A DNA stretch of 64,000 bases from Xiphias gladius. Taxonomy: Eukaryota > Chordata > Actinopteri > Istiophoriformes > Xiphiidae. Of the stretch, positions 17,101 through 60,569 are shown one piece after another. Below the pieces are notes generated by a model. It did not search any database and was not told where the DNA came from. It saw only the letters and a list, made by a program, of their open reading frames with translations. Location: NCBI RefSeq assembly GCF_016859285.1, contig NC_053415.1, positions 6,554,501 to 6,618,500 on the forward strand, given 5' to 3'. How positions within the stretch are numbered: position 1 is the first letter of the stretch; each line of letters starts with the position of its first letter. A program made the translations under genes and the position numbers.

Positions 17101-18646
17101 AGGCAGATAGTATTTGACCGCAGAACATGTGGACACAATGACAAACCAAGCTATAAAAGTTCTGATTTGAGGAATGCCCTCCTGTTTTGACCTCATTTCG
17201 GTGTGAAAACTTTTAAATGATCGCACAGAAGTGTTTGGATAGTGCTAGTTATAACCACATACATTTAACACAATTAATGATTTTAATAACTTTTTGTCAA
17301 CCATAAGCACGCAGATGCATGTATCAAAGCTACTAATTAAGAGTAAACTGCATTGACTAAAATTGTTTTTTTTTTAAATTTACAATTGGATTTACAAATT
17401 CATAGAAACAAAATCATAATAGGAAACTTAATAATGGATAAAAATATTTCTGTTTATTATAAAATTGTGTTATTAGCTACCACAAATTCCCTTCATCACG
17501 TGTGTGCGTGTGTTTGTGTTCTGAGACTGCCAGTATAAGTAAATCTTGACATTCTATCTGTAACAAAAAAAGAACCAGAGTCGTTACAGAGTAGGAAACA
17601 TATTGGTGTTACTTACACCACTTACTTACATTTCTTGTTGAGGTTATCAGATGGACCCTCCTGTAGAGAATAAACAAAAAATTATTTTAGTCAAGATTTA
17701 CCATAACTATGGCATCTTGTGTAACCACTTTCACTTGGCAGAATGCCCTTAATGTCAGCTAGTTTGAAAAGGAATCCCATCGGGCAAATGATCAGTATTT
17801 GTGTCAAGGAAATGAATTCCTTTACACAGAAATGCTTTCAAAGTGTTTTGTACTTCGGGTTACGACCTCTGCAATAACCAAGCAGCAGGAACTGGGAAGA
17901 ACAATATGCGGCACTGCCTTGGGTTTCTGATCATGCACGTGATTCTCAGTGAGATGTGAGCCTTACAGAGACAGGCCTCAAGCTTTTGTACGCTCACATA
18001 CATTTTGTCTCAATCTGATTAGACCTACAGTCCCCAATTTAGAGTAGGGGGAGGGGGTTGAAGGGTCCCCAGCGAATGAGGAAGTTATAGCAATTGATAT
18101 GGCACTTCATTTTGAGGTCAAGACAGAAAGTGAATGTTATAGAAAAGACTGAAGTGATTTTTTTTATTTTATTTTTCAATTTTCACAAGAACCCTATACT
18201 CAGGCAATACTTTTTCTACTCACTTACCTGTGCTGTTTTCTCATCTGGAGGTAAGCGAACCGTCATCTTCAGAACGCATTTGCCCAAACTGATCTGATGC
18301 GCCTCTTTCCTCAAAACATTTTGCTGGTCTGAGTGAGTGAAAAGAAAACAAAAAAAACCATCCCAGCATTCTCAGAAAAGAAGTCGATTGACAATGATGG
18401 AGGTAACATTACGTCTTTGTTTTTTTAATGACAAAGTAGAGAGCAGGTCTAGTTTATCGGACCAAACTTACCCTCCTCTGTGCGGAAGCGCAGCACCGCT
18501 GTCCTGCTGCCATTTTCGTAGTCAACTTCACAATCGCCGCCGTTAGATTTCTTACTTTGAAAGTACTTAACTAATTTAGTTTTTAATCTTGGTAAGTTGT
18601 TTTCTTCGAGCTCAACGAGCAGAGGATAAGAATATTCGTCGGCCAT
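7035..18646 (-). CDS. parp14: PARP14-like mono-ADP-ribosyltransferase with three macrodomains (17 coding exons)
   Basis: Exons in transcript order: 18646-18472, 18328-18228, 17660-17630, 15844-15560, 15017-14793, 14646-12392, 12123-11893, 11586-11365, 11113-11035, 10639-10493, 10318-10256, 10049-9873, 9462-9244, 9141-8527, 8198-8062, 7849-7675 and 7318-7035. All joins keep frame and use GT/AG, giving 1,806 residues, against about 1,800 for human PARP14. Order: RRM-like repeats (residues 1-272), long KH-like region (about 300-770), macrodomains at about 785-970, 1008-1175 and 1220-1400, KH-like (1405-1520), WWE (about 1535-1608), transferase (about 1615-1806). [13 protein letters not shown] near residue 293 and PEYLITF at the end are close to human PARP14. 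The family transfers single ADP-ribose units and reads ADP-ribosylation, is interferon-induced, and acts in antiviral and STAT6 signalling. The start ATG sits beside the promoter shared with parp9. Family certain; which fish paralogue is not. Confidence 0.93.
8527..9141 (-). other. parp14: parp14-like exon 14: KH-like module and WWE domain
   Basis: A 615-base phase-1 symmetric exon. Residues 1404-1520 form a KH-like unit ([42 protein letters not shown]). A WWE domain follows: [37 protein letters not shown] and [12 protein letters not shown] domains can bind terminal or iso-ADP-ribose. The donor is AAAG|GTATTT. Confidence 0.88.
9244..11113 (-). other. parp14: parp14-like linker exon 9 and macrodomain 3 exons (10-13)
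   Basis: Exon 9 (11035-11113) is a Ser/Pro-rich linker. Exons 10-13 encode macrodomain 3: [58 protein letters not shown], and a C-terminal helix with FYNSMRQRE, all matching the third macrodomain of human PARP14. The four exons are 147, 63, 177 and 219 bases, every one a multiple of three with phase 1 at both ends. Confidence 0.87.
11365..12123 (-). other. parp14: parp14-like macrodomain 2 exons (7 and 8)
   Basis: Two phase-0 exons (231 and 222 bases). Exon 7 starts [12 protein letters not shown] and contains [12 protein letters not shown]; exon 8 contains [14 protein letters not shown], the intact glycine-rich ligand loop, nearly identical to the second macrodomain of human PARP14. This domain looks competent to bind ADP-ribose. 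Exon 7's acceptor is TCTCTAG, chosen because parp9 begins its equivalent exon at the matching codon (TDVIVNT). Confidence 0.88.
12392..14646 (-). other. parp14: parp14-like giant exon 6: KH-like array plus macrodomain 1
   Basis: A single 2,255-base exon encodes residues 273-1024: a basic [11 protein letters not shown] start, [13 protein letters not shown], repeated KH-like units, then macrodomain 1 (about 785-970) and the first strand of macrodomain 2. Macrodomain 1 keeps [20 protein letters not shown] and IIHTVGP, but the second ligand loop reads ISRSKGFP (residues 912-919, bases 12,707-12,730) where active relatives have ISSG-[VIL]-F-x-[FY]-P. The usual Tyr of the HYGGL motif is Asn. ADP-ribose binding by this domain may therefore be weak or lost. 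Confidence 0.88.
14793..18646 (-). other. parp14: parp14-like N-terminal RRM-like exons (exons 1-5)
   Basis: Exon 1 starts [17 protein letters not shown] and contains [14 protein letters not shown], close to the human PARP14 start (YFQSPKRSGGGECEV). Exon 2 closes the first RRM-like fold with [11 protein letters not shown]. Exon 3 (17630-17660) is a 31-base mini-exon, a linker. Exon 4 carries a second RRM-like unit ([11 protein letters not shown] to AVVTFQSGK) and exon 5 a third ([17 protein letters not shown] to [11 protein letters not shown]). These are RNA-recognition-like folds. Exons 4 and 5 (285 and 225 bases) are phase-1 symmetric, so either could be skipped in frame. Confidence 0.88.
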
Positions 18647-18680
18647 GACTGTCGGCCATTCAGCCTCTGCCCTGCGCTAC

Positions 18681-18690
18681 TTTCACTTTT
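18681..18690 (-). promoter_or_regulatory. Second, imperfect ISRE-like element beside the parp14-like start
   Basis: TTTCACTTTT, one mismatch from the GAAANNGAAA core in reverse, followed within 20 bases by ATAATGAAACTGAC, which contains a GAAACTGA half-site. Confidence 0.4.
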
Positions 18691-18894
18691 GTTTCTTAGA
18701 TAATGAAACTGACATTATAATTGATGTTGTTGTCGAGGGAAGCCACTAAGCGCTGACGCAGAGTGGGCTGAATCTTAAGACAGAGTGCGAGTATTGTATG
18801 TACATAAGGGGGGAAAAAACAACGACTAGTTAAAACCGGCGCAAAACTTAGCTAACATCCCGAGAGAAAGGGGCGTCCGCAACCTGTCTCGCTC

Positions 18895-18904
18895 TTTCAC
18901 TTTC
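18895..18904 (-). promoter_or_regulatory. ISRE/IRF-like element (GAAAGTGAAA on the minus strand)
   Basis: An exact GAAANNGAAA core, read TTTCACTTTC on the plus strand, 33 bases before the inferred parp9 first-exon donor and about 250 bases upstream of the parp14-like ATG. A 10-base match alone can occur by chance; its place between two interferon-type genes gives it weight. Confidence 0.6.
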
Positions 18905-20268
18905 TGCTTCTCCTCAGTACTTTCCAGAAGGAACTGGGTGAGTAACTTAAAATCTCCGCACAACATTCTTTCTTTAGCCTGTAAAGTTAAAAGTGTGCTT
19001 TTGTTCTGAAATGAATATCAGCGTCGAAATAAATGCTAGATCTTAATAATTAAACCTAGCAAGCAGCTTTTTGTTTTTGTCTCGTAAACATGGTGCGAGA
19101 GGTTGCTCGCGCCGATGCACGTCATTTAACAACCGTGCTTAAGGAAATGGCGGTATAATTCTTTTTTTTTTTAATGGACTATGTCTACGACTCAAAAGAA
19201 GCTTAGAAACAGTGCAACCGACTCTTAGAATGTCGTTTAGACATTTGTCTGAATTAAGAAGTGATATTCTAGCTTACTTAAAAGACGTCGGGATGCTAAT
19301 GCACGAAAGCCAACTTGATTTTTAAGTGCACAAAGTAACTGAAGAGTAACTCACAGTTGGAAAAGTGTGGGTAGTAGTGACACAACGGCAGGTATCTCGG
19401 AAAAAAAATATAGCACTGAATGTTCAATACTTTTGTTTTCTCTACGGACATTTTCCAAACTTATCATTTTACAAAAAAGTATAATAACTTTCTTGTATAC
19501 TAACATTATACTAAGCACATTGGTGCGCTCTGTCTCCTTCTACTGGAGTGAAAGGAAACAACACTTTTATCTGGAATGGATATGCACTGTGTGTTCATTT
19601 GTAGGTAAAGTTATTCTCCAGGCCATAGAAGGACATTTCACACATGATAACACTGCCTATAGTATTAGATTAATTTGTGTATTGAACGCGAAATAATTAA
19701 AAACTCAGCTCACTGTGTCCATGGGTTCCCTGGTGCTCAGGCAACAACTACACAGCTGCCTCAATTAATATCCTCACATAAACTTTTAATTTTTCTAGCC
19801 AGCCAAATATAGGTTACAGACTTAGTGTATAGGGGATTGTTTTTTATATAGAAAAAGACAAAAGTGAAGATGCGTTTGTATTTCTATCTTACCAAAGTCA
19901 AATCACTGCTCTTTGATTTATTAAAATGAAGTCTATGGTGTTCTTCCAGTTTGACTGATAACCCCTTTTCCAATTCGGGCCTCACATGCAGTTGCTGGTA
20001 AAATTATTTTATAAGCCGTGACAATTTCCCTTCTGCCTCAACCCACAGTCCTATTTCTTACATATTCAGCTCAAAGTATTTATTGAGCATGTGAAGGCAT
20101 ATTCAGTAATTCATAAGTGTTTCTTGTCATGATCCACTTTGAAACTCAGCAGGTGTATTCATGATGTTTGAGGTGTGATAACGCTGAGTTTCAAATATAT
20201 TTACCAGACAGTGGTGTCATTCCATGATGTACTTACACAAAACCTTTCCATAGCTCTGTTTAGAAACC

Positions 20269-23200
20269 ATGGCCAGTAAATTAGATATTCCTCTTCATGG
20301 GCCTGCAGTTAACATTGTGTGGCAATGTGGACCCACTCTGAGTGATGTCCTTCAAAGAAAATTTGGATGTGTGGCCATCATCGAGGGTTTGGATTTTGAA
20401 AGAGATCTGACCATTGCACAGCAGAAAAGGCCAACTACTGTCCAAGAGAAAAGGTTTGAGGTTATGCTGCATGCAGGTGTTAAAGTGTCTGTGTGGAAGG
20501 CTGATCTCACCAGATTCCGGGTGGATGCTGTCGTGAATGCTGCTAATACCGTTCTTCAACATTATGGCGGCCTTGCTCAAGCTCTGTCCCTTGCTGGCGG
20601 TTCTCAAATCCAGAAAGAGAGTGATGATTACATCAGAAGGAAAGGAAACTTGGCAACAGGAGATGCAGTTGTCACTGATGCTGGGTTACTACCATGCAAG
20701 AAGATAATTCATGCTGTGGGTCCGCAACTACAACTATACTCCTCTAAGTCTGATGTTTCATGGGCTGAACCGCAGTTAAGGAAGGCCATCAGGAGCATTC
20801 TTGACAGAGTTAAGGAAAACCATCTGAAGACTGTTGCCATTCCTGCTATAAGCTCAGGCCTGTTCAATTACCCCCTGCCACTATGTGCAGACACCATAGT
20901 GTCAGCTGTGAAACACTACTTTGAAAACTACCCCTCTCAAAGATTTCGTCCTGAAGAGATCCTCCTTGTGAACAATGACGAGCCATCGGTTAAGCAAATG
21001 GAGAGGGCTTGCCATGAGATACTAGCCCCCCATAAGCCCATGTCATACAGTCAGGCAGCAGCTGCGAAAACCCCAAAACCAACTGTCCAGATTGGAAATG
21101 TTCTTCTGACACTGAAGCAGGGTGAAATTGAGAAACAGCAGGTAAGAATCTGAGATGTTTCTTCATTATTTAGTAGATTATGTACTAATTTAATGCATTG
21201 CAGTGTGAATTGCTGCTTGTATGAACATTTTTATGTTAACAGGTGTTACAAGTCATTTTTTCTTTAAATGAGCTCCAAAATGTTTTGTTTTTATATTTTC
21301 AGAGCTTCTGAATACATACAAATAAGCTATCTTATTGTTCTGATCCCTTTTTATTTACATTTCTTGCTTTTGTATCCTCTCAGACAGATGTCATTGTAAA
21401 CACTGTATCATCAAACCGAAACTTGCAACTTGGTGTGATCTCCAATGCTTTATTAGTGAAAGCTGGTTTGGGAATGCAAAATGAGCTTTATAAAGCCAGA
21501 GAAAAGGCACAAGTCGTCGTCACAAATGGCTACCACCTGCAGTGTAAAGAGGTGTATCACACATTTTGCACTGAAAAAGGAACGGAAGCAGCGCAGCAGG
21601 TACATTATGAGAATAAGTCTTACAGGGCATTTGAGTAAAAAGGGAAAATCTTAAATGTTAATGTAGAATATTCATTATGTGATATATCTAAAAGTGTTAA
21701 TAATCAAAACATTTTTTTAATTAGTCACATCTAAAAATATATTGTATCACAGTTTGCAATAGTTAATTAGTTTGAAATTTTCTTAATGATATCAAGAGAG
21801 CACATATTCCAAGTAACATTAAGTACAGCACAAATGGTAATGAAAAATAGCAGAGCCCAAAGACTAGCATACGTATTGTTGGGAAAGAAAATATTAATAT
21901 ACTGTATAAAAAATGTATAGATTGTACTGTAAGAAGAGCTCTTATATGTCTACATCTCTATCCACTTATTCATTCATTACAGATTCTTTACGAATCAGTA
22001 TCGGAATGCTTATGGATTGCAGATGCAAGTCACCACAAGTCAATTGCCTTCCCCGCCATCGGTACTGGAGGCCTGGGGTTCAGCAAAAAAGACACTGCCC
22101 AGATCATGTCTTCTGCAGTGGCTAACTTCGCCAAGAAGTCCACAAATATGATGGAAGTTCATTTTGTCACATTACCCTCTGACAACAGCACATTCAAGGT
22201 TGTATTGCAAAAATACTTTCATGATATTAGAATAATATTACCATATTGGCCATTTGTGTATATAGTGGGTGGCTAAAATAGAGACGCCTTGACAGTAATC
22301 ATAATAGAAAGGCAACTTAAACAATTATGAATAAAAACCAAAATACTAAACAACAAAACCAGGGACAGAGGAATAGAGATGGTGAGAATCTAGAGGTGAC
22401 ACTTTGTATGAAGTTGCTATTATATTAATCAGGAAAGTCAAATGTACAGAAATCAGTGATGTTTTAATTAAATATCATTGTAATATGTTTTTGTAAGGTG
22501 GAATGTGGTTATGTGTTTACTGTTTTCAGTTGCCATTGCTCTTAAACTTAATAACTCAAGGGAATGTAATGCTTTATGAATTGTGTCATAGAAAAGAAAG
22601 ACATATATTAGTGACCTTCTCTTTACAGGCTTTTCAGGAAGAAATGAAATTTCTCCAGCAAAAAGCATCTCATCCCAGCTCTACACAGGGTAACAACACA
22701 ATATTTCTGTTGATATTAAATGTACTAAAAAAGATGACCTTTAATGCAAGTATTTTGGTGGGGAGTCGATGGTGATGGAATGCCTTGTACTATTGGAAGC
22801 ACTGAAGTGCCCATAATTACAGTAATTAACACCTTTGAGAGACTTCCTATTCCAGGTGGTCATTGTTTTCTATTAGATTCATTCATGTATGAGAACTTAA
22901 TCTTGAAACTTTTCAGAGACTGGAAATTCATTACAGTGATCATTTTATCACCACTGGCTTTTCTCAAGGCTTTGTTATTGTGGTGTGGTAGTGAAACCCT
23001 GAGCAGCAATAGTCCTGAAGAAACATTGCTGATAGCGGCTGCTGAACAGCAAAGACTTTGATTCAGCAAGCAACTACATTTGCATTATCCTTGTAATCTG
23101 ACTGCAAAATCCTAGATCTGGGATTACTCTTAAAAATACCAGCAACGAATCTCCCAGCTTCCAGTTATATGAATTCCATTCATGAAAATAGAGTAACACT

Positions 23201-27349: not shown

Positions 27350-30300
27350 TCACTCTGTGCATTCAGCTATCTCTGTCCCATCCACAAGCAGCGTGTGAAT
27401 GATCCCGTCCCGTCTTTTCCCGCTGCTCACGGCCTTCACACAGCAGTTGTGGTCTCCGAGTGTGAAATGTGTCTCTGTGCCATCATCCACAAACTCCCCC
27501 TGCAGACGCAAGCCAGACAAAATTGTGGACAAAGAAGGCAATCGTTCAGTTCCTTGTTGTCAGCTCTGGAGCTGCTCTTTATGCAGACAACTGCAGGACC
27601 ACAATGTGTTTGAGGCTTTCTACCCATAAAGGATTTAGTGTTACGTAGAAATATTTGGTTTCTGACGTTAGGAGACAGGAATTTACAATTGTTGAATTTG
27701 ACTTGTCAAGTGACTTCTTAAATTGGGTGGTTTATCCCTTTACTAAATAAAAAAATCAATACATAGACCTGAAAAAGTGTCTGGTATCATACTTACTGCA
27801 GTTTCAATCTTTTGTCCATTACACCAAATATCCATAGTGTCTTTCTCTAAAAAGGAAGGAAACACACTGAATCAATGAAACATCCAACCATTAGTGCAGA
27901 AACTAATGGTATGAGATGTTACTGGCAGTTAACAGTGGCTTAACAAGTTGTAGTATATGTGTGCAGCCAGCTGTTAGTTACAGGGCTTTCCTTGACCAAA
28001 GGAAAAGGCTGATTTACAACTATATGGAATTATTTGTGAACATCAATTTAGAAGCTCAAAGTTTTTTTGACCCTTTGATTTTCATGACATAAGAACAACC
28101 AAAGCTCTTGTTGAGAATTTCCCTGGGAAGCTGTTTTTGAACTAGTCACATTTTTATTTGTGTAGATTTTTATATAAAATGTGGTTTGCAGTATTTTAGG
28201 TCATGGAAGATGTTTTAAAAAGACCATTGTATTTGAAACAGAGACCACATTTGACCAAAACTTCCTTTTTTTTTTTCTTTGTAAAGGCACAATGTTTTAA
28301 CCCTAATTTATGGTGTGAAACTTGTATGTATGAATATATGTAAAGACTGACTTTTGTCTGGGTAGCGGTTTCTTTCTTTCTTTTTTTTTATCTTGGACTT
28401 TTTATTTTATGACTGGTTATGACTGTGGCTGTGTAAAACATTTGATCATTTCTTAATTTACATGTTCAAAGATTTTGTTTTGTTTGGGAAATGTTTGGGA
28501 TGTGTGGTGGCTCTCCAATTATATTTACATAAGAAAAATAGAAGTAGAACCAGTTAGAACCTGGTTAGAACCAGTCACATTTTATAGCTTTTGAAACTTA
28601 AAATGCATTTTCTTCAGCTTCTGAAGGTCAAATGCGACTTTTATATGGCTGAAGGGTTTATTTGAATGTGGCAGGTCCTATTTTGACTAGTTACAGTTAC
28701 CTCTTGAGGACATTTACGACAATATGTTGGCAAGTGTGTTGTTGGTGAATGTATTACTATCAACAACTGTTCTCAATGAGCAGGACTAACTGCCACAAAG
28801 CTTCGTCAGTGAAACTACTATTGCAGACCACAACCTCATATTTCTGCCCGTTCAGTGAATGATTCACATCCTTTTACTGCTCTGATTTATAGATCACTAC
28901 TTCACACTAATGTACAGTATGTGTTGTACATGCTTCAGTTGGTTGCCACCTGATTAACTGTAAGCAGTGTGATTATAAGAAGGATTAACTTGCCCAGATA
29001 ACAGAAGCAGCTGAAGATGGCGTGTGGTTTAAAGAAGTTAAAGAGCTTAGCCTCGGCTCCAACATAATATTAGTGGGCAGTTCTGAAGGGGCAGAAATCA
29101 CACTGTGCTAAATAACAATCCAATATCTATCCTGATTGATTACTTGAATGAACAAATAAAACCAGACACTAGTGACATTTTAAGGTGGATTTACTTTTAC
29201 AGTACTTGGCTGATGCTCTTGCAGTGCTGCTCAGTAGAGCTGAATATTGAACATATGGCTAGGCCATATGAAACAAGGACATTATAATAATCAGATGATC
29301 TGGACAGTGGGTGAATAATATATACACACAGAGGAACTCACCCAGGACCACCCTGCAGTCAGTGCCATCCAAGTTGAGCACCCAGGTGCTGGAGACCTTT
29401 GATCTGTTCTCCATGTACTTCTTCAAGCTCTTCCCGTTGATCTCCAACGTGTACTCATAGGCAAAACCACTGACTGCATCAATGTTGATGGTTGCCTTAG
29501 TGTCTGACTTGCCCACACTGAACGTCTCCTTCCCCACGAGCTTGAACATCCAGTCCCGTCTCAGTATCTCCTGGAGCATGGTGTGAAAACAGAAATTAAC
29601 AGCCGCTAATAAAGCTGACCCCGTAATGAGAAACCGTGAATCATAAAGGGGGTCGGGTTGTATGATAAAAATACGTGTTGTCTCTCTCCTGGCTACAATT
29701 ACTTAAAATCACGATCCATACCTTCCCATCAACGTAGATGACCCTCTTTCCAGTGGTCGTGCCATGTTCAAACTCTATCCTGTGGACTCCATCGCTCAGT
29801 GCCACCTCCCACACACCAGCAAGGTCACTGGACATGCCTAACCTCCAAAGAATCTGCTGGACACGAACAGTAAAAAAAAAACTAGACCACTAAATGTCGA
29901 GGTGAATGCATGGCTAAAGCCTGCTGTTAGCTAACAGACTGGGATAACGTCACTTGGCTTACACTAAAGAAGCGAAACTTAATAATACTTGTCTGTGTCG
30001 GTTTAATCTCCACGTTTGGACACTGCTTCCCAAGAACAGCAATTAGAGAGCATAATGTTCAAACTAACAATTAGTTAACTTGTGACAGAAACATGGCTAA
30101 ACATAACATGGTAAGTTATCGCTGTTTCTTGCATTACGACTTCCGGTGTCAGGGATTCACTTCAAAGTCCATGCAGGGAATGTTTGAACTAAGTGCTTTT
30201 TGTGTTTAAAGCAATCTTTTCAGTGTTCCTTAATGAGTGAAAACATTCATCTCAGCAAACCATATATGTAACTTAAGTGACACATATTCAGCAGAGTATA

Positions 30301-30557
30301 TGAGGGTTTTACAGAGCAGCAAGGGATGATGTGTATGGAGATCCCACTACATGAGTAGTTTCAATTTCAACTGTTTTCAGGCACGGGCCTATTTGCTTTA
30401 CAGCAACAAAACTGGGATTTTACTTTGAAAAGAAAACGGAAGCATTACTTCAACAGTGACGCGTTACACTGTGCACCTTTTCAGTAGCTTTTGCCGCTAA
30501 CGTTACCTTCTCTGCTAAAGGGATAATCTTAAACGTTAGCTCAGGAATATCATCCAT
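27350..30557 (-). CDS. faim: Fas apoptotic inhibitory molecule (FAIM), five coding exons including a long-isoform exon
   Basis: Exons in transcript order: 30557-30507, 29853-29722, 29570-29342, 27846-27797 and 27499-27350. From the ATG at 29835 the protein is 180 residues (human short form 179): MSSDLAGVWEVALSDGVHRI, FEHGTTTGKRVIYVDGK, DWMFKLVGKETF, KATINIDAVSGFAYEYTLEI, then MDIWCNGQKIETA and GEFVDDGTETHF. This is the whole double beta-sandwich FAIM fold with no breaks. The 51-base upstream exon encodes a 17-residue start (MDDIPELTFKIIPLAEK) that joins in frame through six codons to MSSD, giving 203 residues, near the 201 of human FAIM-L. FAIM is a cytosolic protein that protects against Fas-induced death; the long form is neuronal in mammals. 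Very sure of the short form, moderately of the long one. Confidence 0.93.
27847..29341. other. faim intron 3, nothing else seen
   Basis: 1.5 kb of AT-rich intron with T-rich runs; no nested gene or recognisable repeat. Confidence 0.6.
30507..30557 (-). other. faim: faim alternative first coding exon (long form)
   Basis: ATG at 30557, 17 open codons, then a consensus-like donor GAGAAG|GTAACG. Phase 0 fits the acceptor GTCCAGCAG|ATTC at 29853, and the six codons before the short-form ATG (ILWRLG) are open. The human FAIM-L exon also ends in Glu-Lys at this junction. The residues otherwise differ from the human exon. Confidence 0.55.
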
Positions 30558-33069
30558 CTTTACAAACCGGGATTACCTTAACGCTCCGGAAGTAAGCGCT
30601 CTAGCTCCGTGGTTGATAAATGAAAAGCAGGCCACTTGAGCGCAGTTTATTCACAAGGCAGTTAGTTACAGCGAAGTCGACAGACGAGCTGTGACTCTGC
30701 CGTCGCCATGGTAACAGGGCATCCGCCTACGTAGAGGCTCGAGCACTGCCACTCCGGGTACCGGCGCTTGTAAAAAACGTGATGTCGGAGTTCCACGGGA
30801 GCGTTGTGTGCTTGTAGCAAGAAGAAGAAAGCACGCATCGAAACAAAGCCGAGAGCAGGCCTGGATATACCCACTAGCAGGCTCTAGGGCGTATGCTATT
30901 TGCCTCCAACTCATTTTACCCAGAGTAAACGAACATTTTACTTACTACTCAGGGGCTCTTTTAATTTCGAGCTTCACTACAGGTGTAACAAATAACATTC
31001 ACTACTTAGACCTGTGCTCTTCCTCGTGTCAAGATGACAGGTCAAAATGTCTTCTGTCAAAAAGCCCTCCCGGAATACTTCCTCCGACATTTCTCGGTTT
31101 TTCTGTCTGAAAACACACCAAAGGTCAAGGTTTGCAGAGCTGTGCAGCCTGTTGTTCCACGCTAAACAGTCCGTAACATTCCGTTTTGAGAGATCATAGA
31201 AAGGGGGAGATTAAGAGGCAGTGTAATGTTGATATTTTAGGTGATATTGTAATCATTGTAATAGTGTATTGTGATAATAATAAAAATAGAACAAATCTTG
31301 AGAGAGTGCTACATAAAAAAAATCACAAATAAAATATTTTCTTTAAAAAGTGAATTGTTGAATAAGAGAACAATGGGCAAAATATGTTCACTAAATATTG
31401 TACTTCTATTTTTTTCATTAGGTATTCAGCAGAATTATGGGACTTTTTTTGTAAAGCGGACAAAACCTAAAGTCGGTCAAATTAAACAACGTGAGAAAAC
31501 ATTTCATAATGTTTTTGTTTCAGATAGCAATTCATTGTGGAGGTTTTTTCGATCAGCAACCTGTTTCTGTTAAGTCTTGACCCATATTTAATGAAAAATC
31601 AATTAGATTGTCATCATTTTGGATTTTGAGGGAGTGTTAAAAATGAAAAAGCATTGTCTTTTACCTACAACTCTTTGCCTTTTGCTTTTTCCTTTGTCCA
31701 ATTAGACCATCCTAATGCACTGATAGTGGGATTGATTTATTAAATGAAGAAATTAAGTGTCATACTGAGGAAAGGACAAATATGGGAGACCACACATTTT
31801 TTAAGTTTAAGGATTTATTTTAAGCAAATCACAGGATAAGCTACATCAAACCAATTAGAACTCATTCAAGATAAGATATCTGGCTTTTGCACAAATGGGT
31901 TTTTCATAAACAACTGTGAGAAATGATAACAGAATAAAAAATCATATGATCAGAGTAAATAAAAACATCACATCTCTTACATGTAATTTTGTTTTGCAAT
32001 CATTGCTTGCGCACAATTTCCCATTATGACACATTCCCCTTTCTTCTCCTTTACATACACAGAGCCACCCAAGCAGGTATGGACATGCACACCCATTCAG
32101 ATAAACAGACAGATAAAGTATCTTATTTGTAATAGCCTGACGTCAACTGCAAGTTGCTGCACAATGAAAAAATAAGGGATTTTCAGATTACAGCATTTAT
32201 TACAAAGAATACTGTTATGTTTCCTGCACCAGCAGTTTGAATAGACCAACAGTCATCACAGAGGTATACTGTCCCTTGCTTTTGAAAAGAGAAAGGTCAT
32301 TTCATCACCTCTTCCTCTCTGAACGATTAACATGTCCGATTGCAAGGAAAACATTTTTTGTTTTTGCCATTTTGACTTCCTCATGTCAAAAACCAAGTTC
32401 ACGGTGATAGAATTAAAAGCCTGCACGATAAGATGATGGCTCTTCAGTCATGCCCACAATTTCTCACAAAGAACAGAAAGAAAATACATTGTTAAAGGAC
32501 CTAAAGGGCTATCTTTTCATGGAAAAACCACACATGCTTTATAAAATGTACATAAACAACAATGAAATATCAATAATTGCACCAGTTCCCAAAGTAGAAA
32601 AAGTATGGCATACCATCGGTCTAATCAATGGCTGTGCAGCTCTCTCGTTCACTACTGAGGTGGTGTGCCATGCTTTTCCCTCCATTGACAGCTGACAGCT
32701 TTCCTCTGTCTGGAGTGCAAACTTGTTGGACTCCACAATTACATTTCAATCAAGGTGAAATCCCATTGAATCAAACAACGCTGAGGCAAGGATATTTTTT
32801 AACATGTACAAAAGCTGGGATGGATGAGTACATATAGAACTCGATTCAGATTTTGAATAATATTCAAGCTAACACCTAAATATACAGCAGTGTTCCTGAA
32901 TTTTCTCTTTCTTTACATTTCTTATTTTACATGTATTAGATTATCAAATTTGACCAAATGGTTGTCGGGTCTGCAATAGTCTTCTACAATTTCCTCATTT
33001 GGCCACTTGCAGGGGCAAATAAAAATAACCACCACCCAAGCCTCTAAATAATAATCCATCGGGAGTTTT
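30558..33069. other. faim upstream region and cxcr-like 3' UTR region; no further gene seen
   Basis: About 30,558-30,950 is richer in CpG than its surroundings and is a plausible faim promoter. Reverse-strand AATAAA signals that could end the receptor transcript lie at 32,196-32,201 and 31,814-31,819. No coding exon was recognised. Confidence 0.45.
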
Positions 33070-35098
33070 TTACATCGTAACAGAGGTGTTTCTAGATCTG
33101 ATGCTCCCTCCACTGGTGACGGAGCTTTTCCTGTAAGCCATATGGAGCCTGTTACTGATGAGGCCGTGTTTGTAAAGAGCTAAGAACAGGTGGTTGCGGA
33201 ACTTCTCCCCGATGAAGGCGTACAGAACTGGATTCACTGCACAGTGCATGAAGGCCAACACTTGGGTGACATTCAGCAACATTTCCACTTTGTAGCGGGT
33301 TTCACATGTCTCCAATTCAAGCAATCCGCTGTGTGTGAGTGTGTCGATCAGTACAGTAATGTTATAAGGCAGCCAGCACAGAATAAAGGCTAAGACCACT
33401 GCCAGGATGATACGCATGGCCTTATGCTTTTGTTGATTTCGTGTGTGAAACAGCGTCACCACAGTCCAGCCGTAGCAGACAGCCATCACCACCAGTGGCA
33501 GGAAAAAGCCCATCGTATGGCGCAGAAAACGAATGCTAACACGCCAGCGGTCGCTGCTTTCACCAGTTAGGTTTTCATAGCAAAGGGTTCGACCCAGATC
33601 TTCAGCATGCATGCTCTCCCTCTGAATTGCCACAGGTAAGGACAGTACTCCAGCCAAAAGCCACACCACGCAGCACACCACTTTCACCAGCAGGTGGTGG
33701 CAGGACAGGACACGCGTGGCTCTCACAATGGCAAAGTAACGGTCCACGCTGATGCATGCAAGCAGGAACACACTACTGTATAATGATGCTTCCTGAAAGC
33801 CTGACAGGAGTTTGCACAGGAAGTTGCCGAAGATCCAACCAGAATGAATATCGACGGCCCAGAATGGAAGCGTAAGACAGAAGAGGAGGTCTGCTATTGC
33901 CAGGTGCATCAAGTAGATATCTGTGCTGGCTCTGCCTTTCTTCATATAGCAGACCGCATAGACTACTACGCTGTTGCCTACCATGCTGAAGATAGACACA
34001 ATGATGTAGGTGATCATCAGGCCCAGGCTACTAAATCCAGGCACATTTACGCTACAAGGAGCAGATGTTTCGTCCTCATCCATAGTAGAATTGTTAAGGA
34101 GATCGAAGTTATAATTATCCGAGTAAAATACATCTGTGGTCAGCTGCCAAATAAAAAAAAATACATATATCATTACAATCTGTACAAATTGCAGTAGAAG
34201 TAGCAGTAATAGTTCAGTGTTGCCATAGTGGCATGGTAGAGAATAGCTTTCAATGAGATCAGAAACATACTTTTGGGAAATCTGCTTATTTGCCTCCTTG
34301 CTTAGAGCTGAATGAGAAGATTGATACCGCTGTCATATCTTTTTAGTAAATATGATGCAGATATCTTGCAGCTTTTTTGCTAACATAAAAATGATAATAA
34401 TAATAATAATTTTTCCCTCATCAATCTACACTCAACATCCCTTAATGACAAAGCAAAAACAGAATTTTAGAAATTTTTGCTAATTTTATTAAAAAGGAAA
34501 AACTGAAATATCACATTTGCATTAGTTTTCAGACCCTTTGCTGTGACACTAGAAATGTAGCTCAGGTGCCTCCCATTTCTCTCGATCATCTTTGAGATGT
34601 TTCTACACCTTGATTGGAGGCAACCTGTCGTCAATTCAGTTGACTGGACATGATTTGGAAAGGCACACACCTTTCTATATAAGGTCTCACAGCCGACAAA
34701 CGGAGGAGTCGGAGGAGAAGGGCCTTGGTAAGAGGTGACCAAGAACCTGATGGTCACGCTGAATATTGCTTTCGAAACAATTCAAGAATTGTATTCTCAT
34801 CGTAAACAACAGAATCACATATTACTGTATCATAATGGAATATATTTACCATACATTAACACTGAAAGACAATAACATTGAACTATTTTTTAGCCTTACA
34901 TATCCGGGTGCGTAGGTGGTTTTCATCTTTTCATCTTTACAACAAATGTGAATAAAAAATTTGAATGTCGATCCAATACCCTACCTGCAAATTGAAAATG
35001 ACAAATTCAGGAATTCCATTGTTTACCTGTAATTCTCCATCTTGACTGGTTAAAAGCAGATACTTCAAAAAACTAACGATGAAAAGTTGCAGCTTCAT
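33070..35098 (-). CDS. CXCR1/CXCR2-like chemokine (IL-8-type) receptor, two coding exons
   Basis: Exon 1 is 35098-35027 (24 codons, donor TTACAG|GTAAAC) and exon 2 is 34143-33070 (acceptor TTTGGCAG), joining in phase 0 for 381 residues. Exon 2 holds the whole seven-helix rhodopsin-family receptor: GNSVVVYAVCYMKKGRASTD, LAIADLLFCLTLPFWAVD, the SVDRYFAIVRA DRY box, VVLAFILCWLPYNI, and NPVLYAFIGEKFR with HGLISNRL. The tail ends SIRSRNTSVTM, like HTSTTL in human CXCR2. These features fit CXCR1/CXCR2, the Gi-coupled neutrophil receptors for ELR-type CXC chemokines, better than CXCR3-5. The N-terminus is acidic and Tyr-rich (FYSDNYNFD) with sequons at NNST, as expected for chemokine binding. I cannot decide between cxcr1 and cxcr2. 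The start is uncertain: a later ATG at 34083 gives 337 residues but removes most of the ligand-binding N-terminus. Confidence 0.9.
34421..34762 (+). mobile_element. Internally deleted Tc1/mariner-like transposon fragment inside the receptor intron
   Basis: TGACAAAGCAAAAACAG, GAAATATCACATTTGCATTA, TCAGACCCTTTGCTGTGACA, GACATGATTTGGAAAGGCAC and CTATATAAGGTCTCACAGC match the left end of a Tc1-like element common in teleosts. It then jumps to GGAGAAGGGCCTTGGTAAG and GTGACCAAGAACCTGATGG, which belong to the transposase reading frame several hundred bases further in. The element is a short, inactive deletion derivative. It lies in the intron between receptor exons 1 and 2. Confidence 0.75.
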
Positions 35099-49300: not shown

Positions 49301-52300
49301 GATGGTGTTTGGAACACACTTCCAGATAAAGAAAAAAAGCTTTTTTGGGTTTTTTTTTTTTAAAAGCAATATGTGGCCATAGGACTGTAATTACATTGAC
49401 TTTCCTTGGGTATGGCACCGACACCTCTGACTATTGTTTTGCTATATATGGGACTCTAGGCATGACAGTTGAACATTAACAGTTGAATATGTTAACCTTT
49501 TAGCATATTTCACTTTCCATACTGTTTGTGGGATCATGCTGTCCAAAACTCATCTCTAGCAAGTCCAGTCCCTCTGGACTGTTATATTTTGGGGTAAGTT
49601 AAAGTGAGTTACCCTGATCTGAGGCGGAACCTTATTAGGCTCCATTTCGGATACACAGATGGCTAAACAACACACAGATGGAAAGCATTAGTCTTGCTGG
49701 CAGGAGACTCAACTTTCCTGTTGTACTGTGAATTAAAATGTTACCGTGCGGGCTAGGTTTATAGCTGAAAATGAATTGCTCTCCTGTAAATACCTGCCAA
49801 AAACCTTACAAGTGCAGGTAGATTTGCTACCTGAACATTAACTTTGTCTTTTTGATAAAGGGTCACTTTCACATAAGTATCGATGGTCGAGGAAAGGAAT
49901 CGTAAAGGACAGAAGAAAGCCATGAGGATTGGACAAATTGTTAATAATATTTTCTAAAATAAGTTTCACAACTGACAGCTGGGCTGCGAGAGAAAGGAAT
50001 TCCTTTTTTTCCCCACAGCGACGACACGGCTGGTCATTTCTCTAAAGTCATCTTGGACAGTTGCCAGGTTAACCTTGTGCTAATGCCATTTAATAAAATG
50101 AGTTGCACCCGTGTGCATTTTCGTGGGTGTGTTGGCAGGGAGACTGCCACAAGAATGCGAGTTAAAAGATTAAAACCAGCAAGAGCATGCAGCGAGCATT
50201 TCTGCTCATTCAAACACCCTAGTGTGACCGTAGCTTAGCATTTGTGTGCCTGTGTGGTTCATATACCATGCAAAGATGGTATTGATACAGAGAGAAAGGG
50301 GATCCCTTCATTTGCAACACGGTGATGATAAACTCACCATTTCCTAGTTTAGTTTAAATACAATCATAACTGTCAGAGACTGAGCCCTGGAATGTGAGCC
50401 ATATTTTTTCCCAGCTTCATAACCATCTCGAGGATTTCAAGCTCTGTCTGCTGACAAAAGAGCTGGCTGCAACCAGCAGTGCAACTTGCACAACCATTCA
50501 AGCACAAAACCAGTTGTAGGCTGACTCGTCAAAAGAGTGTGTTTGTGTATGAGTGTCTGTTGTAGGAAAGCTAACATCACAAGAGGATGATTCACAGTGG
50601 GTCAGGTTCTGGCGCAAACAACAGGGCCACTCTTGAGCAAAGCCCTTTCACCCCTTTGGAAAATGTTGCAACATCATATCTGTGGAGCTCTAAGGAAAAT
50701 GTGTTAGCTAGTAAGCTGTCATGAAAAACAGAGTCAATACATTTTTACCTGGTAAAACCGACCAAAGCAACTTAGAGAGGTGCAGGATTAAAACAGTAAC
50801 AAACAAGTAGTTTTAGCCCTTATTTACACTAATGTTAGATGAATTATAAAATGCTGTTTGTGTTTTTAAAAACCTTGACACTCACACTGAAACGCTACAG
50901 CAATGGAAGAACTCTTGAGTAACCACAGGCGACTTGAGCAAGCAGCTTTTAGCCAGGTTATATTACCTACATCAGCGCAAAAACGCTAAAGAGGCATTTT
51001 CAAATTCATCTGTTCTGGAAGGCATCTTTGGAAACGATCTGTTTTTGTTCACCGCACATGTCGGCTTAACATGGATGATAGAGAAAAACAAATGTGTTTC
51101 CTAACACAGTGGTTTTATTTTAACCCATCCAACCCTCTAGATACAAGCAGCGTCAATATACTATATATCCGTCACAAAATGTATCCCAACAGGTACAGCA
51201 GCACTCCAATTCGAAATGTGGCACCTTTGAGTAGCCTGCCCTGTCCTGAAAATGACACCATAGGGTACTGACTGCACTGCGGTCCTCAAAATAAAGGCAG
51301 TGAAAAACAGCCATGGTTTCAAGAGGCCATTACGGCGCATTAACGATGGGAATAAGGGTGTCTTATGCAAGCATAGACAAGCTAACTTGTGATGTTTGAC
51401 ACCAGTGAGTTCATAAGGGAGTGTATTCCTGATTAACAGTTGATGTTCATATCTTGACTGTAAACATGCCTGCTCAAAATCCCGACCAGTGTACTTCGTC
51501 ATGAATAACTGTAGAATCCACCTGCAAACAAAGCAAATTAATCCGTGTTTGGAACAAGAGAGCTAACTTCAGTCTTAAGGAGCCACGAGGGCGGGCTGCT
51601 CGCTCTCCAGATTCTTTTTCTCTGTCATTTGGACTCTGGTTTACCAGGGCACCCTACATTACACCCTATGAATAAGAGCATGCTTGTGGTTCACAATAGA
51701 GCTTTGCTGCTCCCCGAGAAGGGGGAAGGGCAATGCATTCCTCTACTGACCTCCTGTCTGCAGCAGATATTAAACAATAACCGATGCTTTTAATTTGCTT
51801 TTACCAGCCATCGCAAAGGAGGAGACAAAGCACGACAGTCCCCGATCTTTGCAGACCACTCGCAATGAGCACTGTGTGAAAGAGTTGATCTGCTTTGTCT
51901 GCATTTTTGGCCGGAGAGGAGGGTAAGCAGCGAAGACTGGCATTTCAGGAGATCTGCGAAGAACAATGTGATCATTCAATGTGAGTGACTACCTCGGGAG
52001 ACTGATTCTGACTGGACGCCTGCAAGTATTTAATCTGGGTAACTGCACACATCTCATTTAATTCACTTCTGTAGGGAAAGTGCAGCATAGGCCTGTTAAA
52101 AATGCAACAGCTGTAAATAAATCTCACCTTTCACTCAGTATAAGGCTTAAACCATAGTGCAGATGATAGAGTCAATATAATGCTCCGAGTTCAGACAACT
52201 GTCTGTTCACCTTGTGATTCACGACACTAGCTGGTCCAGGCCCCATTTTAGCCCTAATGTGGGACATAAATCCTGTCTTAAAATCGTGCACACTCCCCTT

Positions 52301-52899: not shown

Positions 52900-53950
52900 C
52901 ATCAGGAATGCTGGCGGTTGATCGGTTTCCTCCGCTCTGCTTAGACAGGGGGTGGGGTGCCCGGCTGAAAACTGGGAGGAGAGAAAGAGGGGGGGGTGGA
53001 TTTGGGAATATTCTTTGTCCTCACCCCGCAGTACGGCACACAGCTGGAGAAGGACACGAGCTCCTCGGAGGCAAAAAAAAAAAAAAAACCAACCAAAACG
53101 CTGGATGGGTTGATATTCGAGCGGGAGGGTTTTCTTCCAACAAAGAGCAAGCGAAGGAACGGCTCTCGACGCAAACGAAAACTTTCATCACCGGAGGACC
53201 TACAATCACAACTGAAGGTAAGATATCACGAAGGAAGCGCAGACGCGGCGGCATCACGTTGCCGTGTAGCTTTTGCTAACCAATGGCTGCTCAGGCTCAA
53301 GTCTGAGCTTCAACTTTTCTGTGCCGGAGGCGCCGCGAGCGTGGCCCCCAGCGTTCCACTAACCCGCGTTCTCAAAGCGAGGCTCGGTGAAGGCTCGCGC
53401 CCAGCGCGAGGCTCAAGTTTACGCGCAAGGGCTGGCAGCAGTCGGCGCTCATCAAAACGCGCAAACTGGCCGCGATGTGGTGCGGAGCTGGTGGTGATTC
53501 CCTGCCCTGCCCGCCCATTGGCACCGCGCGCAACGAGAGTCCCGCTTTGATGCGAGTGTTTTTCGATCACCCGAAGGTGAAAATCGTGGCTATGGCGACT
53601 GGATTTGGTGATGGAGGAACGCGCAGGGATCGCGTCTCGTTTTTTTTTTCCCCCTCAAAGTTGCCCCCACCCGTCTGCGAAATCCCGTAGTCCGGAGAAT
53701 GTCTTTACTAACGTCGCGTAGCCTCGTTACCTCAAACAGCTTGGTGTGACAGTCTCTACCGGTTCATTAACCACCTTCATATACATAGAATAGAATACGA
53801 TGTATGAAACATTAGTGTTTGTGTGGGAGAGCCACAGTACGGCCGTGGGAGCACGCGGAGCGCCGCGGTGACGTCGCCCCGTTAGCCACGAGGACGGCTT
53901 CTTTTCCTTAAGCCGCAAACTTGATTCGCGTCCTATTGAGCCGGATAGTG
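52900..53950 (+). promoter_or_regulatory. GC/CpG-rich region with the inferred noncoding first exon of the connexin gene
   Basis: Against an AT-rich background this kilobase is strongly enriched in G, C and CpG (for example GACGCGGCGGCATCACG and GCGCGAGGCTC). A good donor, ACTGAAG|GTAAGATATC, places an exon end at 53,217. It pairs naturally with the acceptor CTCTCTGCACAG at 59,228, 33 bases before the connexin ATG. Connexin genes usually have a noncoding first exon and a long first intron, so I read 53,217 as its end. The transcription start is not determined. Confidence 0.55.
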
Positions 53951-56900
53951 TGTCGTGAATCTGTGCGCTTTAGCGGAGCGAGGCCTGCACCTCACGTTCT
54001 GCGTCTCCATATCAGTTTTTGCGGTACTGGGGATGCTGAGGTGATGATCTATTTTTTTCCCCCTAGTTTCTCCGCCACTGTTCAGTGGTGAGTCACCCCT
54101 CAGTTTGATTCATATGCTGGTTATTTTTTGTCTTTTTTTTTTTTTTCCTCCCCCACCCCAAGCACAGGGCCTCTCAGGTTTTAGGGCTTTGGGATAGAGG
54201 AGGGAGAACCATATCTAGCCTCCCAGATGTGAGAGCCACAAAAGCCTCTCTGTTCTGCAGGGCTTGGTCAGTGTTCAAAGTTTGCTGCCTTGCTTTGCTC
54301 CTTACTTTGAAGGAGGCTTTTTTTTTTTCCTTTTTGAAGTGCTGCAGATAGACAGAGGCTGCCTCAGTAGATAGTACATGTGAATTGGTTTTAGGGAATG
54401 AAAAGTTGTATTCAGTTGTATTCAGAATTGATTAGCAAGTTATCCAATGTTTATTTGTGTATCTGATCAGCACTGGACACAGAAAAACACTTTGGGAATC
54501 CACAAGCTTGAAGATGTTAACACCAAGAAAGCTCAACAGAATGAAGTTTAAAATGATTTGTTGGGTAGTTTATAGTGTCAGACTGATGAATTGGCCAGGC
54601 TGGTATCTGCTTTCTGCAGATATCTTGCTATTGGTGTACATGTAGGCCATTATGTAACATGAAAGTGCAGTGAAGAAATGCAAAATGTTTTATGTAGTCT
54701 ATATATAGGTCACAGTCTTTTATAACCAAAGCTGTGGTTAGTGGTTACTCTTACCAAACGCAGTCTACACACACACATGCACACACACACACAGCTCGCC
54801 GCTTCCTCAAGTAGGCCATGGAGAAAGTTGAAAGTTGAGCTAGCTAAGTGTATCATCTACCAATTTTGTTGGTTTTTCTTTTTCATCGTGTGAATCTACA
54901 AACAAACCTGGAAATCGGTGCAGTTCCTCTGCCACAGACCATGTTTAAAGGTGCCATATGTAAGATTTTGCTATTGCTACACAGCCAACATTAGCATTAT
55001 GAGCTGTTTACTTGCCAGTCCAGAAGAAATGTTACGAGCATCAAAGGACATTCCTCTACGTGCCAAGAGCTCTCTCCAGTGATGGAAAGCAAACTTCAGT
55101 AGATATCCCTGCAACACAATACATGGACATCTTTGACATAACATCACAACTGTCATTTCTTCACATTCTATTGATAATTTTAGTTAATTGTGGAATACTA
55201 AAGGCTTTGAAACTGAAAAGTATAGCACCTTTTTAAAAAAAAGTTAGCACGTTGCTATAAGGGGCAATGAGACTGAACAGCAGCACGTAAACAACAGGTC
55301 CGTCCATGTGTCAGTCTAACATCACTTGACTATGGAGACGACCAAAAATTACAATATTTTAGATAATAGATATTCCAGCTGTAAATTCGGATTCTTTTTC
55401 AACGTGTCTTGATTTGCTGTCTGTGTGCAGGGGTGGGACTGTTTTTAGCAAGAGTGACACACTTGCAGACTCTTGCATGTGAGGCAGGGGTTTTCTTGGA
55501 CATGGACGTCAACTCTGACAGTAGCTTGGGGCAACTCCTAACCATTAACCTAGATTACAAGCGGCAGAGTGTGGCATTAAATTCTGTTCCTTGCAGCACG
55601 ACAGAAAAGCCACATAGCTAGCATGTTAGGTAACTGATATTTCTGGGGTGGCAGAATGCAACTGACAAGATAAAGCTTTGTGGTAGCTCATAAACTTTAT
55701 TTCCCATCTATAATTGAGTTGGTACCCCGTAGGCATTTTCAGCTTAAAACCACGTGCCTCCACTGAGCATCAATGAATTACTTACACTTCCTTGTGGAAA
55801 TGCACACGGACAGCTGCAGAGACCACGGACATGTAATTGTTCTTATTATACTACTTTCTAATCCGCTTGGTGTGGAAGATGGTATTCTTGTAGCGTAGTG
55901 GCCAGATACACAGAACTCCGCACAGAGCCTCACATACACCCTCTGGTGACGAAATGTAAGTCACTGGGAACCTAGCAGGCCCTTGCGGACGCAGAAGTTA
56001 TAACACTAGCTTATGTTTGCAAGCAGGATGTAGCGGCATAGAGGCAGCTCTGCAGAGGCCAATGAGGAAGGATCATGTCAGTGGTAGCCACTGTGGACAG
56101 TAAATAAGACAAACAAACATCGTAAAAGTAGTGAATAAACACAAAACGTGCAGAAATTAGTTTCACTGCACACTAACATTACTGGTGAAGGCAGCAGATC
56201 AACGGAGTAGTAGAGATCGTCATATGATCCTATGCCCTCCCTCTTTCTGTGGGTGCGTTTAGTTTAACATGTAAACGCACAGATTACAAGCAGAATGTGA
56301 ACTCTTCCTCGACAGACTAAAGATAAATTATCTCTTCAAAGCATCTGATAGAGCAACCATGGGGTCAGTCATGAAAGTGAGTACTTATTCAAGTCTCTCT
56401 TAAAGCAGATCATTAATCACATCTTTCTTCGTACCCGAGTTGCTGCTGCACAATGGAAACTTGTGTGCTTCGTTCTAACCCTTTATTTATCAAAGGATAG
56501 TTTCCACCAAACGTAACATCAAATGTAACGTGCAAACAGTACTCCCATTCACACCTGGGAGTTGCCCAATACAAACACTTCTTATTAAGCATCCCTGCTA
56601 GAGCACTATGGGGTGATGTATCATCTTTAAAGGCTTCTCAGCGGTTGTTTGTTATGGGATCTTGAGCTGTCCTCAGTCATTTTTGCCCTATTTGGTCCAT
56701 TTGAATTTAATTTTTCAGTTCATACTTTTTTTTCTTTCTTTTTTAATCTATCATTGAACTCATTTAAAGAAATATTGTGCCACCACAGTGTGCACACAGT
56801 AAGTAGAAGTGTATTTCTCTGTGGAATCCTTTTTTTAATCTTGGCACCCGAAAGCAAAATCGTAAATATTACAAGGTTTCCCACTTCCTGGGAAAGGGGG

Positions 56901-59228: not shown

Positions 59229-59261
59229 GTTTGAGAGGTTCCCTCCGGTTTCCGAGGCAAA

Positions 59262-60569
59262 ATGAGCTGGAGCTTCCTCACACGTTTGCTGGACGAGATT
59301 TCCAACCACTCCACCTTTGTGGGCAAAATCTGGCTTACCCTCCTCATTGTCTTTCGCATCGTGCTGACGGCGGTCGGGGGCGAGTCGATTTACTACGATG
59401 AACAGAGTAAATTTGAGTGTAACACGCGGCAACCTGGTTGTGAGAATGTGTGCTACGATGCGTTTGCGCCGCTGTCGCACATTCGCTTCTGGGTCTTTCA
59501 GGTGATTATGATCACCACCCCCACCATCATGTACCTTGGCTTTGCTATGCATAAAATCGCCCGCATGGAGGATGATGACTACCGGCCCCGGAGTAGGAAG
59601 AGGATGCCTATAGTGAACCGTGGTGCCAACCGGGACTACGAGGAAGCAGAGGATAATGGGGAGGAGGACCCCATGATCCTGGAGGAGATTGAGCCAGAAA
59701 AGGAAAAGGACGCTGTGGAGAAGCCCAGCAAAAAGCATGATGGACGCCGTCGCATCAAGAGAGATGGTCTGATGAAGGTCTACGTGTTTCAGCTGCTATC
59801 ACGTGCCATCTTTGAGGTCTCGTTCCTGTTTGGACAGTACATTCTTTATGGGCTGGAAGTGGCGCCATCGTATGTATGCACACGTTCACCTTGCCCGCAC
59901 ACTGTGGATTGCTTCGTCTCACGCCCTACAGAGAAAACAATCTTCCTGCTCATCATGTATGCCGTCAGCGCCCTGTGTCTGCTCTTCACCCTGCTGGAGA
60001 TCCTCCACCTCGGCATCAGCGGTATCCGTGACTGCTTTTGTGCACCGCGATCTCGGCCTCCCACCCCCCGTCACCCAGCTTTGGCCAGCCAGAGGTCCTC
60101 CATCTGCCGCCAGCCCTCTGCGCCCCCAGGCTACCACACAGCTCTGAAGAAGGACCCAACGGGAAAAATGGGCTTTAGGGATAACCTGGGAGACTCCGGC
60201 CGCGAGTCCTTCGGGGATGAGGCTTCATCACGGGAGCTGGAGAGACTGCGCAGACACCTGAAACTGGCCCAGCAACATCTGGATATGGCTTACCAGAACG
60301 AGGAGAATAGCCCGTCGCGCAGTAGCAGCCCAGAGTCCAATGGCACCGCAGTCGAGCAGAACAGATTAAACTTCGCCCAAGAGAAGCAGAGCAGTACGTG
60401 TGAGAAAGGTGGGGCTTCTACCTTTTCATCCTTTCATAAGCTTTTTTTTTTTTTTTTTAAACAACTGCACTATGGCTGCTTATATTTATTATGTGGCTGT
60501 GACAAACAGCAAATAAAATTCTTTACTAACACTGACACCATCTCTCGGTTCACAGGTCTCCGTGCGTAG
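59262..60569 (+). CDS. Connexin, gap junction gamma family (Cx45 / zebrafish Cx43.4-like)
   Basis: Coding exons 59262-60408 and 60556-60569, 386 residues. [20 protein letters not shown] is nearly identical to Cx45 and to fish Cx43.4. Four membrane segments lie at about 22-41, 76-97, 172-193 and 228-250. Extracellular loop 1 has C-x6-C-x3-C ([12 protein letters not shown]) and loop 2 has C-x4-C-x5-C ([12 protein letters not shown]), the six disulfide cysteines. The long acidic cytoplasmic loop ([12 protein letters not shown]) and the HDGRRRI motif are typical of gamma connexins. Six subunits make a hemichannel that docks to pass ions and small molecules between cells. The tail is Ser- and Pro-rich and carries [16 protein letters not shown]. 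The spliced protein ends STCEKGLRA. An acceptor 33 bases before the ATG indicates an upstream noncoding exon. Family certain; whether gjc1 or the fish-specific gjc4-type paralogue is not decided. Confidence 0.94.
60409..60555 (+). other. Small in-frame intron in the connexin tail
   Basis: 147 bases from donor AAAG|GTGGGG to acceptor GGTTCACAG. The length is a multiple of three, there is no stop in frame, and it includes a T17 tract. If retained, 49 residues are inserted before the same four-residue ending (GLRA). Confidence 0.6.

Follow-up and report, generated by a model that had tools for sequence, protein, structure and literature searches.

A putative interferon-type divergent promoter between parp14 and parp9 in Xiphias gladius

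PARP14, PARP9 and DTX3L make up an interferon-linked module of ADP-ribosylation and ubiquitin, the products of which are countered by coronavirus macrodomains. Human PARP9 (BAL1) and DTX3L (BBAP) reportedly share an interferon-responsive bidirectional promoter, said to have been described by Juszczynski et al. in 2006, and a GAS element belongs to this promoter. The interferon-responsive bidirectional promoter of human PARP9/DTX3L also appears in the excerpts of two papers in which PARP14 is given as a nearby interferon-induced gene (PMC13224862, PMC11251048). Divergent gene pairs have been defined as those whose start sites are separated by less than 1 kb, and DTX3L-PARP9 is among 14 divergent pairs that are co-expressed in all 51 tissues examined (PMC12672016). 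In zebrafish, parp9 is among the genes whose log2 fold change exceeds 2 upon infection with Pseudomonas aeruginosa (PMC6262203). The parp14 and parp9 genes and their link to interferon are already known, and the difference from human at the locus described here is the promoter partner. In a literature search for a fish parp9/parp14 promoter we recognised none, and among the sources found only a gene list for Nile tilapia bears on the gene order.

We analysed a 64,000-nucleotide stretch of Xiphias gladius DNA, referred to below as the window, in which parp14 on the minus strand and parp9 on the plus strand lie head to head across 291 bp. The features of the locus are collected in Table 1. With a probability that we put at about 0.74, a divergent, CpG-rich promoter of the interferon type would have its core in these 291 bp and drive parp14 and parp9 together.

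Table 1. Positions of genes, putative regulatory elements and neighbouring features in the window.
Feature	Position	Strand	Basis or remark
parp14, 17 coding exons, 1,819 aa	7035..18646	-	RRM1-3, KH1-6 and 8, three macrodomains, WWE, PARP with H-Y-L
CpG-rich stretch	18251..19450	.	sampled 300-bp windows, CpG observed/expected 0.84-1.48
GAS-like TTCTCAGAA, in parp14 intron 1	18369..18377	.	consensus search
parp14 coding exon 1, first RRM domain	18472..18646	-	GT donor, Pfam
Divergent promoter interval, parp14 ATG to parp9 exon-1 donor	18647..18937	.	putative promoter; 291 bp exactly
Upstream ATG, out of frame, 15-codon frame overlapping the parp14 start	18657..18659	-	13 nt before parp14 start
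ISRE/IRF-like site 1, plus strand reads TTTCACTTTT	18681..18690	-	34 nt upstream of parp14 ATG
ISRE/IRF-like site 2, plus strand reads TTTCACTTTC	18895..18904	-	33 nt before proposed end of parp9 exon 1
Stretch for parp9 start and short noncoding exon 1	18905..18937	+	most likely; inferred from donor and acceptor
Proposed 5'-UTR intron of parp9	18938..20263	+	GTGAGT ... TCTGTTTAG
parp9, 7 coding exons, 757 aa	20269..24889	+	two macrodomains, ART region without catalytic His
faim ORF	29,262-29,702		Pfam scan
Chemokine receptor frame, intronless-looking	33073-34245	-	best matches CXCR1 and CXCR2

Identity of the two head-to-head genes

As judged from its sequence, the minus-strand gene is a complete, intact-looking parp14. 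Its exons are joined by GT-AG borders at 16 of 16 introns into an open frame of 1,819 aa, and Pfam matches were obtained for RRM_PARP14_1/2/3, KH_PARP14_1-6 and 8, Macro, WWE_1 and PARP. One Macro domain is located in exon 6 and two in the C-terminal part, the joined 783 aa of which contain both Macro stretches together with KH8, WWE_1 and PARP. KH7 gave no match in the parts scanned with Pfam (exons 2 and 3 were left out), and comparison of the first RRM region with PDB produced nothing significant (best E 0.1). Among single-macrodomain PDB chains, macrodomain 1 matched a PARP14 chain best (112.7 bits, versus 102.5 for PARP9), and PARP15 and PARP14 chains came out on top for the catalytic region (about 200-208 bits). 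DTX3L and PARP14 have similar beginnings. A dtx3l identity of the minus-strand gene was considered as well; it is ruled out by the presence of WWE, PARP and three macrodomains, and the parts scanned gave no match to RING or DTC. The original prediction that the divergent partner of parp9 is a parp14-like gene was therefore borne out, the partner being a full parp14 instead of dtx3l. The FHGT, GTYF and PEYLITF stretches of its catalytic region align with PARP15, showing that the H-Y-L catalytic residues are present, and we take their His, Tyr and Leu to be the mono-transferase triad. This residue assignment agrees with the 'HYX' triad given in PMC11251020.

The plus-strand gene is, by the same kind of analysis, a complete, intact-looking parp9 in which Pfam detected two Macro stretches. 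Macrodomain 1 scored 151.5 bits with a PARP9 chain in PDB, versus 121.2 with the PARP14 macrodomain-1 chain, and for macrodomain 2 the margin between PARP9 (89.7 bits) and PARP14 (88.9 bits) was negligible. For parp9 as a whole the best single PDB match was the PARP14 two-macrodomain chain 3vfq (213.5 bits), because each of the PARP9 chains listed covers a single macrodomain. KH_PARP14_8 scores of 26.6 and 24 bits were obtained, which are under the model cut-off of 27. The exon borders at 22,198 and 22,689 are less sure than the others, since their donors, two of the six coding donors, score poorly (-4.51 and 0.39 bits). Comparison of the first 291 aa with viral_contigs gave one pattern match and no relative.

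Residues 610-754 of parp9 match PARP15 and PARP14 ART chains in PDB weakly (about 45-47 bits), and Pfam PARP, sought in the ART region, gave no match. The position of the catalytic His is occupied by Q when read without gaps and by A in a MAFFT alignment; the Y is kept and the third residue is I. The parp9 transferase looks dead, and the ART triad of human PARP9 is QYT (PMC11251020). It had been predicted that the locus would pair a transferase with a catalytically dead reader. The contrast in transferase residues fits, as parp14 keeps H-Y-L and parp9 lacks the catalytic His, but 'dead reader' is correct only in half, since macrodomain 1 of human PARP9 has been reported as an active ADP-ribosyl hydrolase (PMC11251020).

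The 291-bp interval and its candidate promoter elements

Both strands of the interval were read. The A of the parp14 start codon is at 18,646 on the minus strand, and the parp9-side donor (TGG/GTGAGT) is found on the plus strand with 18,937 as the final exon base. The start codon, the donor, an interval of 291 bases between them and two ISRE-like motifs inside it had all been predicted; each of them is present, and the length is exact. It should be read as the span from the parp14 ATG to the proposed donor of parp9 exon 1, not as a distance between start sites. Four upstream ATGs are present on the parp14 strand within the interval. The out-of-frame one listed in Table 1 could damp translation of parp14 if the transcript starts upstream of it, and ATGGCCGAC is repeated at this ATG and at the parp14 start. 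Rfam and tRNA scans of the 64-kb window were empty.

The parp9 ATG is preceded, at a distance of five bases, by an acceptor (TCTGTTTAG/AAACC-ATG, at 20262-20263), and there is an in-frame stop six codons upstream of this ATG. Together these make it most likely that transcription of parp9 starts in an upstream exon. When scored with donor weights, the donor at 18,938 is the top-scoring GT in the region 18,647-20,240 (5.04 bits, versus 3.36 for the next best), and of the 3,735 GT sites that the window has on its plus strand, 20 score as high, this one counted. The donor score and the acceptor constitute good but indirect evidence for the proposed parp9 exon ending at 18,937. Parp9 might instead start in another exon within 18,938-20,263 and so bypass the 291 bp. 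Further GT sites do occur in this region, but those up to 20,240 have the lower scores just given, and the CpG observed/expected ratio, calculated for sampled 300-bp windows, drops to 0.52 and then to ~0.3 past about 19,300-19,450. We regard such a start as very unlikely.

On the other side, the two sampled 300-bp windows that precede position 18,251 have CpG observed/expected ratios of 0.47 and 0.17, so that the interval is enclosed in the CpG-rich stretch given in Table 1. Three places in the window exceed this stretch in CpG, around 53,000-54,000, 30,551 and 59,351. The region 53001-54000 is the most CpG-rich of the window, with 34 CpG in 300 bp at 53351, and the one ORF scanned there (52969-53547) gave no Pfam match. 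The CpG-rich stretch at about 30551-30850 is probably the promoter of faim.

Strings of the type TTTCACTTT at 18,681 and 18,895 constitute the two ISRE/IRF-like sites. The string RAAASTGAAAS, which we take to be an IRF-type consensus, occurs twice in the 64 kb (both strands searched), both times inside the 291 bp, and none of 5,000 dinucleotide shuffles reached two. For AAAGTGAAA, two of the three occurrences in the 64 kb (both strands) are inside the interval, and again 0 of 5,000 dinucleotide shuffles reached two. As these motifs were picked after the sequence had been seen, the figures for the strictest of them overstate the case. The looser AAANNGAAA is present 49 times in the window and twice in the interval; 0.48% of 5,000 shuffles reached two, 2.5% of 291-bp windows placed at 5-base steps hold at least two, and this statistic is only moderate. 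The perfect GAAANNGAAA core occurs 13 times in the window and once in the interval (2.6% of shuffles, 5.5% of 291-bp windows) and is by itself weaker support than the stricter strings. As far as sequence goes, each presumed start thus has an ISRE/IRF-type element near it.

A search for GAS (TTCNNNGAA) gave none in 18647-18937, and the nearest is the one at 18,369. It might be argued that the ISRE-like strings are there by chance, in a CpG-rich divergent promoter of the housekeeping type that drives both genes, and that any response to interferon originates at another site, such as this GAS-like element. In line with this, TTTCACTTTC at no more than one mismatch is found 20 times in the window, where shuffles average 10.4 (none of 100 reached 20), about twice the expectation, and the frequency of the GAAANNGAAA core among 291-bp windows points the same way. 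However, the strict strings concentrate in the interval, as described above for AAAGTGAAA and RAAASTGAAAS, and both flanking genes have interferon-linked human counterparts (PMC13224862, PMC11251048), and we consider the chance explanation unlikely. Elsewhere in the window, the only other perfect TTTCACTTTC is at 49508-49517, where no gene was identified nearby. An ISRE core, TTTCAATTTC (GAAATTGAAA), is present at 30359-30368, ~190 bp from the CpG-rich stretch near faim; it may be another site of the interferon type or have arisen by chance.

In the divergent promoter that we favour, parp14 and parp9 would be transcribed away from each other out of the CpG-rich 291-bp core. Site 1 would serve the parp14 side, the ATG of which is no more than about 35 nt away, and site 2 the parp9 side, where the proposed short noncoding exon ends at a similar distance of up to about 35 nt. 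Being this near to the start codon and to the donor, the two sites may themselves be part of the 5' UTRs. Binding of interferon-activated ISGF3 or IRFs to both sites would switch on parp14 and parp9 together, and the output would be a three-macrodomain mono-ADP-ribosyltransferase and a transferase-dead macrodomain protein produced in step. The start sites, factor binding, interferon induction and co-regulation of the two genes are what we infer from the sequence: the parp14 and parp9 starts are probably less than 300 bp apart, and the divergent promoter is probably interferon-responsive.

The same elements could also belong to two independent promoters that adjoin each other within a single CpG-rich stretch and share no function, site 1 acting for parp14 and site 2 for parp9. 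Indeed, both genes have a site of their own beside the presumed start, with 204 bp between the two sites. Nevertheless, starts beside these sites would be separated by less than about 300 bp, which is within the 1-kb definition of a divergent pair (PMC12672016), and a single CpG-rich stretch covers both presumed starts. We find this arrangement doubtful, although it deserves serious consideration. If one promoter does drive fish parp9 and parp14, the doses of a writer and a regulator would be tied in cis. A shared promoter would also make the locus a compact natural system bearing on the effect of PARP9 on PARP14 without DTX3L as genomic partner, and on the origin of DTX3L.

Gene order and possible ancestry of the pair

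The order of genes in the window is cxcr1/2-like receptor, faim, parp9 and parp14. The gene list for an 80-kb interval of Nile tilapia (LG16-21:31,140,001-31,220,000), given in a paper on cichlid introgression, has the same four genes in the same order, cxcr2, faim, parp9 and parp14, and in this list there is no dtx3l; the likeness is one of a gene list alone, without orientation, spacing or promoter (PMC6145409). The adjacency of parp9 and parp14 is therefore not peculiar to one fish. The six stop-to-stop ORFs listed for the window at more than 210 aa are all part of, or opposite to, one of four genes, namely the chemokine receptor, parp14, parp9 and a connexin. The connexin has a long ORF on the plus strand at 59235-60566 (Pfam Connexin, E 5.3e-96). 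A 167-aa stop-to-stop frame without Pfam match, possibly part of a neighbouring gene, is present on the plus strand at 1401-1901. A split dtx3l might conceivably lie among the shorter ORFs of the window outside the 291 bp, of which a minority was scanned.

The original prediction spoke of a module rewired in this fish, that is, of a lineage-specific event in which parp14 would have captured an older parp9-dtx3l promoter. The human partner of PARP9 is DTX3L (PMC13224862, PMC11251048) and here it is parp14, as such an event would require. This part of the prediction is not supported, since the tilapia list, in which orientation is not given, contains the same four genes without dtx3l (PMC6145409), and the adjacency is common to at least one other fish. 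We consider a rewiring confined to one fish to be quite improbable.

Conversely, the parp14-parp9 pairing may be older than the human PARP9-DTX3L pairing, with fish having the older state and mammals having changed. PARP9, which is present in jawed vertebrates, is regarded as having originated by partial copying of PARP14 (PMC10221186), many fish have extra PARP14 copies (PMC4038475), and the domains of PARP14 are those of PARP9 and DTX3L combined, minus RING and DTC (PMC11251020). These three points fit an ancestral parp14-parp9 promoter at least as well as they fit rewiring. We tentatively propose, as a speculation that is much more likely to fail than to hold, an ancestral layout preserved in fish in which parp9 is an inverted partial copy of parp14, and in which, toward mammals, DTX3L replaced the 'head' of parp14 on the same promoter, with a RING-DTC tail instead of macrodomains and ART. 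Such an ancestry would explain why PARP9 and DTX3L add up to nearly the PARP14 domain set. If true, the interferon promoter would be the conserved unit and the C-terminus of the partner the part that changed. A trace of inverted duplication, sought across 18,200-19,300, found no support: 14 short inverted pairs (10-20 nt) were obtained, many of them A/T-rich. The ISRE strings stand as direct repeats and do not form an inverted pair. At such an age no inverted-repeat trace would be expected.

Comparison with the human PARP9/DTX3L promoter and macroPARP cluster

Like the human PARP9/DTX3L promoter, the locus described here is divergent in its gene layout, has parp9 on one side and contains interferon-type elements, which in the fish are predicted from the sequence. 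The partner genes also resemble each other at their beginnings: human DTX3L, with one RRM and five KH domains (PMC11251020), has the RRM first and then the KH domains, as fish parp14 does. Unlike DTX3L, the fish partner has macrodomains and ART, being a full-length parp14, and gave no RING or DTC in the parts scanned. The 291 bp of the fish also differ in having no GAS inside and in that the start sites are presumed ones.

At a larger scale, the human cluster at 3q21, which comprises PARP9, DTX3L, PARP15 and PARP14, likewise holds macroPARPs at one locus (PMC11251048). In contrast to this cluster, parp9 and parp14 of the fish are immediate head-to-head neighbours, and they are found beside faim and a cxcr1/2-like gene.
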